From contig NZ_CP076718.1 of the NCBI RefSeq assembly GCF_011682235.2, positions 3,210,400-3,274,399 of the forward strand: 64,000 nt of DNA, written 5' to 3'. The notes under the pieces were generated by a model, which saw only the letters and a program-made list of their open reading frames with translations, did not search any database and was not told the DNA's origin. Below are positions 37,180-41,381 of this stretch, in pieces (positions within the stretch are counted from its first letter, which is position 1; every line of letters begins with the position of its first letter). Source of the stretch: Rhodocaloribacter litoris. GTDB taxonomy: Bacteria; Bacteroidota; Rhodothermia; Rhodothermales; ISCAR-4553. The position numbers and the translations under genes are program-made.

Positions 37180-38292
37180 TCAGGCCTGGACGATGGCCTC
37201 GCGGGCAAGGGTGCGGCCGGCGTCGGTGAGGTGGAGGCGCCCGTCGCTGCGGCGCACGAGGCCCCTGCCGAGGGCTTCGCGGACGACCCGGTCGGCGAAG
37301 GCGGCTTCCCAGCGAAGGTGCTCCTGGAGGTGGTCGATGCGGCACTCACGGGCTTCGTGCGGGCCGCCCTCGTGGTGGAGCAGGTGGATGGTGAGCATCT
37401 TCACGGCGAAGATCCATCGCTGGCGTCGCCGCCGCCGCACCAGGGCCAGGAGGCCGCGCTCGGGTGCCAGGAAGAAGACCGCGGCAAAGAGCAGGCCCAC
37501 GACGGTGGCCATGGCACCGGCGATGGAGGCGTCGAGCAGGTGGGCCAGCCAGTACCCGCCGACGGCCGAGGCCGCCCCGAGGCCCACGCCGAGCCCGATC
37601 ATGACGTCGAGGCGATCGGTGAGCAGGTAGGCCGTTGCCGGCGGCCCGATCATCAGGGCCACGACCAGGATCGATCCCACGGCGTCGAAGGCGCCCACGG
37701 CCGTCATGGAGACAAGCGTCATCAGCCCGTAGTGCAGCAGGCCCGGGGCGAACCCGAGCGCCGCCGCCAGCCCGGCGTCGAACGTGGCCAGCTTCAGTTC
37801 CTTGTAGAAAAGCAGCAGGAAGAGCGCATTGAGCAGCCCGACGGCGCCCATCACGTAGAGGGCCTTCGGGCCGAGGTCATACCCGGCCAGCACGAGCCGG
37901 TCGAACGGGGCGAAGGCCAGCTCGCCGAGCAGCACCGCGTCGGTGTCCAGGTGGACGTCCCCGGCGAAGCGGGCGATCAGGATGACGCCGAGGCTGAACA
38001 GCACGGGAAAGACGAGCCCGATGGCGGCATCTTCCTTCACCAGCCGCGTCCGGTGGATCAGCTCGACGAGCGCCACCGTGAGCACCCCCGTCAGCGCCGC
38101 ACCCAGGATGAGCAGGGGCGAGTTCAGGTCCTCCGTGAGGAAGAAGGCGACGACGATGCCGGGCAGGATGGCGTGGCTGATGGCGTCGCTCATCATGGCC
38201 ATCCGGCGCAGGACGAGGAAGGCACCCGGCAGCGCGCACGCCGCCGCCACCACCACGGCCACCAGTTGTATCTCAACCTGTTCGGGCGTCAT
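37180..38292 (-). CDS. metal ABC transporter permease (TroD/MntD-like) with winged-helix tail
   Basis: This 370-residue inner-membrane protein is the second permease of a Zn/Mn/Fe ABC importer. Residues 1-285 hold eight or nine membrane helices (LVAVVVAAACALPGAFLVLR, MMSDAISHAILPGIVVAFFL, LVSMTAVGAFDAVGSILVVA). Residues 286-370 form a soluble cytoplasmic tail, starting RRRRRQRWIFAVKMLTIHLL and ending VVREALGRGLVRRSDGRLHL, TDAGRTLAREA, which looks like the winged-helix of DtxR/MntR repressors without its metal domain. The ATG at 38292 was chosen over a long fused frame that runs antisense into its neighbour. It lies 8 bp after the first permease gene. Confidence 0.92.
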   Translation of the reverse strand: MTPEQVEIQLVAVVVAAACALPGAFLVLRRMAMMSDAISHAILPGIVVAFFLTEDLNSPLLILGAALTGVLTVALVELIHRTRLVKEDAAIGLVFPVLFSLGVILIARFAGDVHLDTDAVLLGELAFAPFDRLVLAGYDLGPKALYVMGAVGLLNALFLLLFYKELKLATFDAGLAAALGFAPGLLHYGLMTLVSMTAVGAFDAVGSILVVALMIGPPATAYLLTDRLDVMIGLGVGLGAASAVGGYWLAHLLDASIAGAMATVVGLLFAAVFFLAPERGLLALVRRRRRQRWIFAVKMLTIHLLHHEGGPHEARECRIDHLQEHLRWEAAFADRVVREALGRGLVRRSDGRLHLTDAGRTLAREAIVQA

Positions 38293-38300
38293 GGTCTGTT

Positions 38301-39455
38301 CTATGCGTTCGCGTCCTGCGGAGGGTTCCCGGCGTTCCGGTCCGTTGTTTCGCCCCGTGCAGCCAGGAGGCGGCGGGCCTGTTCGGTGCCTTCGGGGGTG
38401 AGGGCCCAGTGCTGGTCTCCGGTGGGGCGGACGTAGCCCTGCCCGGCGAGGGCTTCCAGGCTGCGGCGCGTGTGCACCGGCTCGTCGCGCATCACGTCGA
38501 GGACCGATTCGTGATGGGGATGACCGGGGTCGGTGTGCTGGCTCGAGAGGGCATAGAGGTCGAGCAGCACGGCCTCGTGGCGGAGGCGCCGGCTGTTGCG
38601 CCGGGCCCGTAGCTGGCGGGCCAGCAGGCCCCGGTTCGGGGCAAACAGCAGGGAGACGACGACGAGCACCCCGGCGCAGAGCACGATCATCGGTCCCGTC
38701 GGCAGGTTGGCCGCCGTGCTGCTGAGGAGGGCGCCGCCGGTGCCGGCCAGGGCGCCGAAGAGGGCCGAGAGGGCCACCATCAGGCCGAGGCGGTCGGTCC
38801 ATTGCCGGGCCGAGGCGGCCGGGGCAATGAGCATGGCGCTCATGAGCACCACGCCTACGGCTTGCAGGCCGATGACGATGGCCACGACGAGCAGCGACGT
38901 CAGGAGCACGTCGAGCGGGCCCATGCGCAGGCCCAGCGTGTGCCCGAAAGCCGGGTCGAAGGCCAGCAGCTTGAACTCTTTCCAGAAGAGCAGCATCAGC
39001 ACGAGGGCCACCGTGCCGAGGACACCCATCGTGAGGACGTCGCGCGTGACCAGGGCCGCCGCCTGGCCGAAGAGGAACGTGTCGAGGCCGGCCTGGTTGG
39101 CGTCCGGGCGTCGCTGGATGAAGGTCAGGAGCACGAGCCCGAAGCCGAAGAAGACCGAGAGCATGAGCCCGAGGGCGCTGTCGTACTTGACGCGGGTCGT
39201 CCGGGTGACGGCCATCACGAGCAGGGTGGCCAGCCAGCCGGCCGCGGCCGCACCGAGCATGAGCACCAGCGGCAGCTTGCTGCCGGTCAGGAGAAACGCC
39301 AGCGCGATGCCGGGCAGGGCGGCGTGCGAGATGGCGTCGCCGAGGAGGCTCTGTTGCCGCAACACGGCGAACGTCCCCAGCGCCCCGCTCACAATGCCGA
39401 GCGTCACCGCGCCCAGGACCACCGTGCGCAACGTGTAGTCGGTCAGCAGCTCCAT
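38301..39455 (-). CDS. metal ABC transporter permease (TroC/MntC-like) with winged-helix tail
   Basis: This 384-residue permease has the TroC fold: RTVVLGAVTLGIVSGALGTF, LGDAISHAALPGIALAFLLT (the conserved GDAISHA loop), and LLVVAIVIGLQAVGVVLMSA. Residues 280-384 are a cytoplasmic tail that again reads as a winged helix: VLLDLYALSSQ, then HTRRSLEALAGQGYVRPTGD and HWALTPEGTEQARRLLAARG. Its partner permease carries an independent, diverged copy. Encoded third in the binding protein-ATPase-permease-permease order. Confidence 0.92.
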   Translation of the reverse strand: MELLTDYTLRTVVLGAVTLGIVSGALGTFAVLRQQSLLGDAISHAALPGIALAFLLTGSKLPLVLMLGAAAAGWLATLLVMAVTRTTRVKYDSALGLMLSVFFGFGLVLLTFIQRRPDANQAGLDTFLFGQAAALVTRDVLTMGVLGTVALVLMLLFWKEFKLLAFDPAFGHTLGLRMGPLDVLLTSLLVVAIVIGLQAVGVVLMSAMLIAPAASARQWTDRLGLMVALSALFGALAGTGGALLSSTAANLPTGPMIVLCAGVLVVVSLLFAPNRGLLARQLRARRNSRRLRHEAVLLDLYALSSQHTDPGHPHHESVLDVMRDEPVHTRRSLEALAGQGYVRPTGDQHWALTPEGTEQARRLLAARGETTDRNAGNPPQDANA

Positions 39456-39518
39456 CCCGGTTGTGGTTTCAGGTGGCAGGTTGCAGGGCGGAGCGGATCC
39501 CCCGCGTAGCCGCCCGCA

Positions 39519-40343
39519 TCACGTTACCGAGGCGGTTTTGAGGAAGGCGATCCGCCCGCCGTAGGTCAGGCGCAGGTTCTCCTCCGTGAAGACCTCGTCG
39601 ACCGGTCCGCTGGCGATGCATCGGACGTTGAGCAGCATCACGGCGTCGAAGTATTCGGGCACCGTCTGCAGGTCGTGGTGGACGGCGACGACCGTTTTGC
39701 CGCGGGCCCGCAGTTCGCGCAGCAGGGCGATGATGGCGCGTTCGGTGGTGGCATCGACCCCCTGGAACGGCTCGTCCATGAGGTAGAGCTGGGCGTCCTG
39801 CACGAGGGCACGGGCCAGGAAGACGCGCTGCTGCTGCCCGCCCGAGAGCTGGCTGATCTGCCGCTTCGCGAAGGCGGCCATGTCCACCTTTTCGAGGGCT
39901 TCCAGGGCCAGGGCCCGCTCGCGCCGTCCCGGACGGCGAAACCACCCGAGACGGCCATAGAGTCCCATCATCACCACGTCGAGGACCGAAGTGGGAAAAT
40001 CCCAGTCGACGCTGCCCCGCTGGGGGACATAGGCCACGCGGTCCCGCTGTTTTTCGTACGGCTGCCCGTAGACGAGGATCTCGCCCGCCGCCGGCTTCAC
40101 GAGCCCGAGGATGGCTTTCAGGAGGGTCGTCTTGCCGGCTCCGTTCGGCCCGACGATGGCCATGAGCACCCCCGGCGGTACGTCCAGGTCGATGTCCCAG
40201 AGCACCGGCCGGTCCCGGTACGCCACCGTCAGGTCGCGCACCTCGATGGCAGGAATGGTTTCCGGTTTCAAGTTGCGGCTTTCCGGTTGTTCCGATCCGT
40301 GGTTCTCGGAAGGAAGCCCGGCAAAGAACGTTCGCTGTGTCAT
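39519..40343 (-). CDS. metal ABC transporter ATP-binding protein (TroB/MntB-like)
   Basis: This 274-residue ATPase powers metal import. It shows Walker A ([20 protein letters not shown]), the Q loop ([20 protein letters not shown]), the signature motif ([20 protein letters not shown]), Walker B ([13 protein letters not shown]) and the switch His ([16 protein letters not shown]). [10 protein letters not shown] is typical of the Mn/Zn subfamily. About 30 non-conserved residues precede the domain, so the true start may be internal (near [10 protein letters not shown]). It overlaps the binding-protein gene stop by 4 bp. Confidence 0.94.
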
Positions 40344-41311
40344 GTCGACTGTAGCGTTTGCCGGCCGAGCAGGGCGTCGACGATGGTGTCGACGTTGTGG
40401 CGGACCATGCCGGTGTAGGTGCCGGCGGGGGTGTCCGGGGCACCCAGGGCATCGCCATAGAGGGTACCGCCGATCCGGACGTCGAAACCGCGGGCCCGCA
40501 CCGCCGCCCGCACCGCCTCGATGCCGCGCGGCGAGACGGACGACTCGACGAACATCGCGGGGATGCGCCGCGTCGCCACGAAGTCGGCCAGCGCCTGCAC
40601 GTCGGCGGCACCGGCTTCGGTGGCCGTGCTGATGCCCTGCAGGCCGCGCACCTCGAAGCCGTAGGCGCGGCCGAAATAGCCGAAGGCATCGTGCGACGTG
40701 ATGAGCACGCGCTGCGCCGCCGGGATCTCGGCCACCCGCGCCCGCACATAGGCCTCCAGCGTCTCCAGCTCGGCGACGTACCGGCGGGCATTGGCCTCAT
40801 AGGTGGCCGCGTGGGCCGGGTCGAGCGTCGCCAGCACCTTCGCCACGTACCGGGCCGCCTCCATCCAGAGCGAGACATCGAACCAGATGTGCGGGTCGTA
40901 ATTGCCCGTGAAGTAGGCGGAACTCCGGTACCGGGTGGTGTCGATCCCGTCGGTGACGGCATAGGTCGGAATGCCCCGCTGCTTCATCTGCTCGAAGACC
41001 TCCGTCATCTTGCCCTCGAGGTGGAGGCCGTTGTAGAAGATGACGTCGGCCGAGGCCATGCGCGTCACGTCTCCCTCGCTGGCTTTGTAGAGGTGCGGGT
41101 CGACGCCCGGTCCCATCAGCCCCGTCACGTCCACGCGCTCCCCGCCGATGTGGCGGACCAGGTCGGCCACGAGGCTGGTGGTGGCCACGACGCGGATGGG
41201 GCGCCCGGACAGGTCGGCCGCGTCCGTCCGGGCGGCCTGCCGGCCGCAACCGGTGCCCAGCAGGGCCGAGACGAGAAGAACGACGAAGGAAGAACGTAGA
41301 GGTCCTGGCAT
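40340..41311 (-). CDS. metal ABC transporter substrate-binding lipoprotein (TroA/MntA-like)
   Basis: This 323-residue lipoprotein catches Zn2+ or Mn2+ outside the inner membrane. A lipoprotein signal ends [11 protein letters not shown]. The cluster A-1 fold shows [20 protein letters not shown], the metal-site histidines in [32 protein letters not shown] and [20 protein letters not shown], a helix backbone [20 protein letters not shown], then [20 protein letters not shown] and the Asp-rich C-lobe. There is no His-rich loop, which favours manganese or iron over zinc, but only weakly. First gene of the operon, behind a DtxR-like palindrome. Confidence 0.93.
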
Positions 41312-41363: not shown

Positions 41364-41381
41364 TTTTAGTTTGGGCTAAAA
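41364..41381 (-). promoter_or_regulatory. DtxR/MntR-like operator upstream of the metal importer
   Basis: TTTTAGTTTGGGCTAAAA is a perfect palindrome with 6-bp arms (TTTTAG, CTAAAA) around 6 bp, in the AT-rich stretch 53 bp before the binding-protein start. Its form resembles boxes of DtxR/IdeR/MntR-type metal repressors, which bind TTTAG-N-CTAAA-like sites. No stand-alone repressor of this type is encoded in the window. Confidence 0.6.

Follow-up and report, generated by a model that had tools for sequence, protein, structure and literature searches.

Why should both permeases of one metal importer continue beyond their membrane core into a tail that resembles the DNA-binding half of a repressor? 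The question is raised by a window of 64,000 nt, the whole stretch of DNA analysed here, from Rhodocaloribacter litoris (NZ_CP076718.1 of GCF_011682235.2, positions 3,210,400-3,274,399, forward strand). It contains an ABC-3 metal importer with PF00950 permeases, a PF00005 ATPase and a PF01297 binding protein, encoded by one minus-strand operon (37180-41311). Fusions of a permease with DtxR became known around 2012 and are proposed to act by releasing a repressor. The genes of the operon and the two tails are, in window coordinates:

40340..41311, minus strand: binding protein of the ZnuA/TroA family, first gene of the operon (PF01297, E=3.4e-83)
39519..40343, minus strand: ATPase subunit of the importer (PF00005, E=4.6e-32)
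38301..39455, minus strand: TroC-like (C) permease, 384 aa, ABC-3 core (PF00950, E=3.7e-68, residues 7-271) plus C-terminal tail
38304..38642, minus strand: tail of the C permease, residues 272-384, an Arg-rich linker helix continuing into a winged helix
37180..38292, minus strand: TroD-like (D) permease, 370 aa, ATG at 38292, ABC-3 core (PF00950, E=4.1e-44) plus C-terminal tail
37183..37467, minus strand: tail of the D permease, residues 276-370, a winged helix

Fold and ancestry of the tails

The core recognised by Pfam ends at about residue 271 in the C permease and at about 273-275 in the D permease, with some 113 and 95 residues following it, respectively. PsaC (7kyp/7kyo), the nearest solved relative of the D permease, is aligned with it over residues 10-286 only. 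In both proteins an Arg-rich stretch comes straight after the last hydrophobic segment and no further transmembrane segment is found, which, by positive-inside inference, fits the cytoplasmic location assigned to the tails in the first-pass annotation of this DNA. Identity among orthologues is 71-75% in the core and 43-58% in the tails. Conservation of the tails in orthologues indicates that they are real coding sequence and, since it extends across the order, rules out an artefact or a frameshift.

AlphaFold2 models, built with small alignments, predict the helix-helix-helix-strand-strand-helix order of a winged helix for both tails. The D tail is modelled with a pLDDT of 93.5 (helices 5-31, 37-40, 43-50, 54-66 and 81-93; strands 70-73 and 76-79) and the C tail with a pLDDT of 85.7 (helices 3-33, 45-51, 58-67 and 83-103; strands 71-75 and 78-81). 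Thus, winged helices on both the TroC-like and the TroD-like permease, as read from the letters in the first-pass annotation, are also what structure prediction yields, rather than some other fold or a domain lacking the helix-turn-helix. Foldseek searches against the PDB returned mainly winged-helix domains for both tails, with modest E-values, all above 0.001 and the best about 0.005. Matches of the D tail include IdeR, DtxR and MntR (TM 0.53-0.60), OhrR and the winged-helix part of methyltransferases; those of the C tail are MarR-type regulators, AF1382 and MntR. Profile-profile comparison with hhalign is more telling and relates the C tail to the winged helix of complete permease-fused DtxR modules (97.5%) and to the helix-turn-helix (HTH) of stand-alone DtxR (94.1%); the D tail is related to the latter at 93.8%. 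The two tails match each other at 88%, or 97% when cross-phylum alignments are used, and reversed controls stay below 3%. The DtxR kinship suggested earlier is borne out by these comparisons together with the Foldseek matches.

PF01325 has no match in either permease or tail up to E=1, and the same holds for Pfam FeoC and the tails. Searched alone against Pfam and NCBIfam, the tails give weak winged-helix matches (HemN_C, HVO_A0261_N) or none; a PDB sequence search with the D tail gave chance-level matches only, and a comparison with PHROGs nothing useful. Fe_dep_repr_C (PF02742), the metal-binding and dimerisation domain of DtxR, is absent from both tails in a Pfam scan, in agreement with the first-pass description of the tails as lacking this part. 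The tails are best explained as paralogous winged helices left over from a DtxR-type module, formerly fused to the permease, of which they were the DNA-binding half.

Tails and complete modules across phyla

The first-pass annotation had raised the matter of whether relatives carry one tail or both. Within the order, the D permease has a match in 67 of 80 genomes and both tails are present in most; elsewhere there is one tail, two tails or complete modules. This occurrence in relatives and in other phyla rules out that the tails are confined to the R. litoris genome. Outside the order, a complete DtxR module on the C permease is the usual arrangement; in other Bacteroidota the C permease has 423-436 aa and contains PF02742 (E about 1e-21 to 1e-25), and the D permease has no tail. 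A wider sample, made from a collection scan and two phylum searches, holds 192 distinct loci. Classified by a short (winged helix only), full (complete module) or missing domain, 70 loci are short on C and on D, another 70 are full on C with a tailless D, 28 lack the C tail and have a short D tail, nine are full on both and six combine a full C with a short D. The opposite combination, a short C tail with a bare D, occurs twice: at one locus (L211) the contig ends there, and the other (L073) is a genuine loss of the D tail with no frameshift. Transporters with complete modules on both permeases come from Planctomycetes, Latescibacterota and Omnitrophota. Those with two short tails come from Rhodothermales, Chloroflexota, Omnitrophota, a Caldithrix and one genome of the Acidobacteriota group, as well as from a Krumholzibacteriia contig in which the D permease is cut by the contig end.

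In a tree of D-permease cores (root not inferred), permeases with a full or missing D domain are split from those with a short D tail with an SH-aLRT of 98, and the transporters with a full C and a short D lie near the base of the short-tail side. In our reading of this tree, the latter would be intermediates. The tails evolve faster than the core and were lost in several lineages. Since C tails were lost several times and the D tail once (L073), neither tail is essential.

Some loci depart from these classes. Three single-permease importers (L047, L048 and L049, in genomes G112, G137 and G225, respectively) have a complete three-domain DtxR, including the FeoA/SH3 domain, at the permease C-terminus, in proteins of 487-491 aa. 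The C permease of a Thermomicrobiales locus (L198) carries a decayed DtxR module, with a weak match and QERLWKAYL in place of HRLWE, possibly an intermediate between a complete module and a tail reduced to the winged helix. At L065 (4773-6959), in a family of the order with a full C and a tailless D (f4), a gene for a 728-aa outer-membrane-like protein lies between the C and D permease genes.

A separate repressor and conserved residues of the tails

The R. litoris genome encodes a stand-alone three-domain DtxR-family protein about 263 kb from the operon, and this is the only gene in the whole genome with PF02742 over the cut-off. Hence the first-pass remark that no metal repressor gene is near holds within the window, while the genome does have one. 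A DtxR-type operator-like site lies upstream of the operon:

41364..41381, no strand assigned: perfect palindrome TTTTAG-N6-CTAAAA, 53 bp upstream of the start codon of the binding-protein gene

The site, TTTTAGCCCAAACTAAAA, is the sole exact TTTTAG-N6-CTAAAA in the 4.5 Mb genome. In relatives, TTTAG-N6-CTAAA recurs at dtxR and transporter loci, several of which have it just upstream of dtxR. With a separate DtxR and a predicted DtxR-type operator, the tails are not needed for repression of the operon, and the two together rule out that the tails control the operon for want of any repressor. A second DtxR-like palindrome in the same genome, TTTTAGGTTAGACTAAAC (L134, G000:C1:4265655-4265672), is situated close upstream of a gene resembling a haem-motif (CxxCH) thiol-oxidoreductase or di-haem protein, which is likely a further member of the DtxR regulon. 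In four other genomes or MAGs (G303, G314, G265 and G279; L185, L210 and L059/L131), no Fe_dep_repr_C domain was found other than that of the permease-fused module, and there, by analogy with Chlamydia, the fusion may be the actual repressor.

The part of the domain that would read DNA behaves differently in the tails and in the repressor. Stand-alone DtxR proteins of the order are most conserved in the recognition helix (mean column entropy of 0.85 bits per column versus 1.17 for the whole HTH), whereas this helix is the variable part in the D tails (1.81 bits versus 1.37 for the whole domain) and in the C tails of the order (2.17 versus 1.78). The recognition helix is also variable in complete fused modules (2.84 bits versus 1.07 in stand-alone DtxR). 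The seven DtxR metal ligands, however, are kept in 85-99% of 84 such sequences (H 96%, E 99%, H 94%, H 86%, E 85%, E 96%, H 96%), so that these modules have conserved the sensing of metal and not the reading of DNA. In the tails, His, Glu, Trp and LT..G positions are near-invariant across several phyla, and two groups of residues stand out as candidates for metal binding:

37318..37386, minus strand: D-tail set H303, H307, E316, H321 and H325, at the end of helix 1 and in helix 2, candidate metal site
38514..38537, minus strand: C-tail pair H307 and H314 (QH...HPH motif), candidate metal ligands

Among D tails reduced to the winged helix, conservation of polar residues falls on His and Glu (H303 in 98%, H307 in 93%, E316 in 96% and H325 in 94%); in the corresponding C tails (n=72), H307 is kept in 96-97% and H314 in 98-99%. 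The D set varies with the type of the partner. E316 is present in 70/70 D tails paired with a short C tail and in 28/28 paired with a tailless C permease, versus 0/6 where C carries a complete DtxR module. Position 325 is His, Glu or Asp in 96/98 of the D tails paired with a C permease without the DtxR metal domain, and Arg in 6/6 of those paired with one that has it. The six cases with a full C comprise five Acidobacteriota-group genomes in one clade and one member of Chloroflexota, so this contrast rests on one or two evolutionary events. Within the Acidobacteriota group, the set is kept in L274, where the C tail is short, and absent in L185 and L268-L271, where C is full. To judge from these one or two events, it looks as if the metal site was handed over from the DtxR domain of C to the tails. 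There are exceptions: the D tail of L076, which has no C tail, is without most of the His/Glu set, and H307 is absent in L206 and L220. H303 and W328 of the D tail persist even where the rest of the set is gone; thus, part of the conservation is structural. In Chloroflexota (L239-L264), where the C permease lacks a tail, H325 of D is often replaced by Glu or Asp (17/28), as if the D site had been re-tuned upon loss of the C tail.

Role of the tails and comparison with known systems

The tail domain is probably a brake or gate on the transporter rather than on genes. Of this reading, the fold and the DtxR kinship, the lost metal-binding and dimerisation domain, the variable recognition helix, the conserved His and Glu residues, the separate DtxR and the operator-like site are supported by computation. 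Regulation of transport is favoured because the separate DtxR and the operator-like palindrome already serve transcription, and among the three functions put forward in the first-pass annotation (tethering the operator, sensing a repressor, regulating transport) it is the one that fits best. In its specific form, our reading is that the tails act on the transporter and not on DNA as a feedback gate, most likely sensing cytosolic metal through the His/Glu sets; we give it about equal chances of being right and wrong. The tails would hang below the channel, beside the ATPase subunits, and their helices 1 and 2, which bear the His/Glu sets, would bind cytosolic metal. The bound metal would stabilise one arrangement, affecting ATP hydrolysis and slowing the transport cycle, in principle as in MetNI and ModBC. 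The full evolutionary account, in which the DtxR module lost its metal domain and the leftover winged helices evolved a new His/Glu site to become a metal-operated brake, is tentative and rather short of an even prospect.

The main rival, unlikely overall yet with an appreciable chance of being correct, holds that the tails are assembly or stability domains which bind to the ATPase or to one another, or shield the permease from proteolysis, without any sensing of metal. Winged helices often mediate protein contacts, the conserved Trp and His could be structural, the tails are lost singly, and there is a precedent in FeoC, which protects FeoB from FtsH (PMC10710835). This explanation leaves the covariation of E316, H307 and H325 with the DtxR metal domain of the partner unexplained, and the tails do not match Pfam FeoC. 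A decaying, functionless remnant of the old fusion would account for the fast evolution of the tails relative to the core and for their losses in several lineages, but is very unlikely: the reading frames are open and the domains are folded, and conservation extends over several phyla, with His, Glu, Trp and LT..G positions that hardly vary.

Two further explanations keep the tails in gene regulation. It is improbable that they are DNA-binding domains, membrane-anchored or released by proteolysis, with the operon as their target. This mode has been proposed for YtgCR of Chlamydia, whose YtgR part binds to the ytg operator after cleavage from YtgC (PMC5599777, PMC7755916). The ancestral module was a DtxR repressor and a DtxR-type operator-like site is present upstream of the operon, but the metal-binding and dimerisation domain is missing from the tails, a separate DtxR is encoded in the genome, and the recognition helix, which is better conserved than any other part of the order's stand-alone DtxR, varies more than any other part of the tails. 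This last point weakens the tethering to the operator proposed earlier. Slightly more doubtful still is that the tails dock the stand-alone DtxR, sequestering or releasing it according to the state of transport. In several relatives its gene is found no more than a few kb from the importer; however, DtxR dimerises through the very domain that the tails lack, which also counts against the earlier idea that they sense a repressor, if this were to work by DtxR-type heterodimerisation, and two genomes with short tails (L209 and L206), possibly incomplete, show no PF02742 gene.

If a metal-sensing gate is the correct reading, a former repressor domain has been turned into a metal-operated brake on a transporter. 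The fusions form a series: the module may be complete on one permease or on both, complete on C with only a winged helix on D, or reduced to the winged helix on both. This series is an argument that, in many lineages, it is the transporter and not the promoter that the fused domain serves. The residues and natural variants described here are concrete material for testing post-translational control of manganese, iron or zinc import.

A direct literature search on permease, winged helix and DtxR returned nothing, and the Chlamydia precedent was reached through TroC. Orthologous permease-DtxR fusions were reported in 11 phyla (PMC5599777). YtgCR (CT069 of C. trachomatis) is, like the R. litoris protein, encoded in an ABCD metal-import operon and combines in one chain a TroC-like permease and, at its C-terminus, a domain derived from DtxR. 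YtgR, however, is a complete metal-binding repressor that is cleaved and resides on YtgC, whereas R. litoris has a winged helix only, on both permeases, with a separate DtxR in the genome. Importers of the TroABCD/PsaABC/MntABC type share the core permeases, ATPase and binding protein, but matches to PsaC and ZnuB end before the R. litoris tail. DtxR, MntR and IdeR share the winged-helix fold and a remote sequence kinship of the N-terminal domain; the tails differ from them in being attached to the membrane and in having neither a PF01325 match, nor PF02742, nor a conserved recognition helix. The likeness to MetNI and ModBC, ABC importers subject to trans-inhibition through cytoplasmic C-terminal domains (PMC10710835), would lie only in the proposed mode, a cytoplasmic C-terminal regulatory domain that senses the imported substrate; their domains are of other folds and located on the ATPase subunit, and sensing by the R. 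litoris tails is our inference. FeoC would be alike as a winged helix working on a metal transporter and not on DNA, but it is a separate protein. The tails of R. litoris are thus a reduced form of the known TroC-DtxR permease-repressor fusion, present on both permeases.
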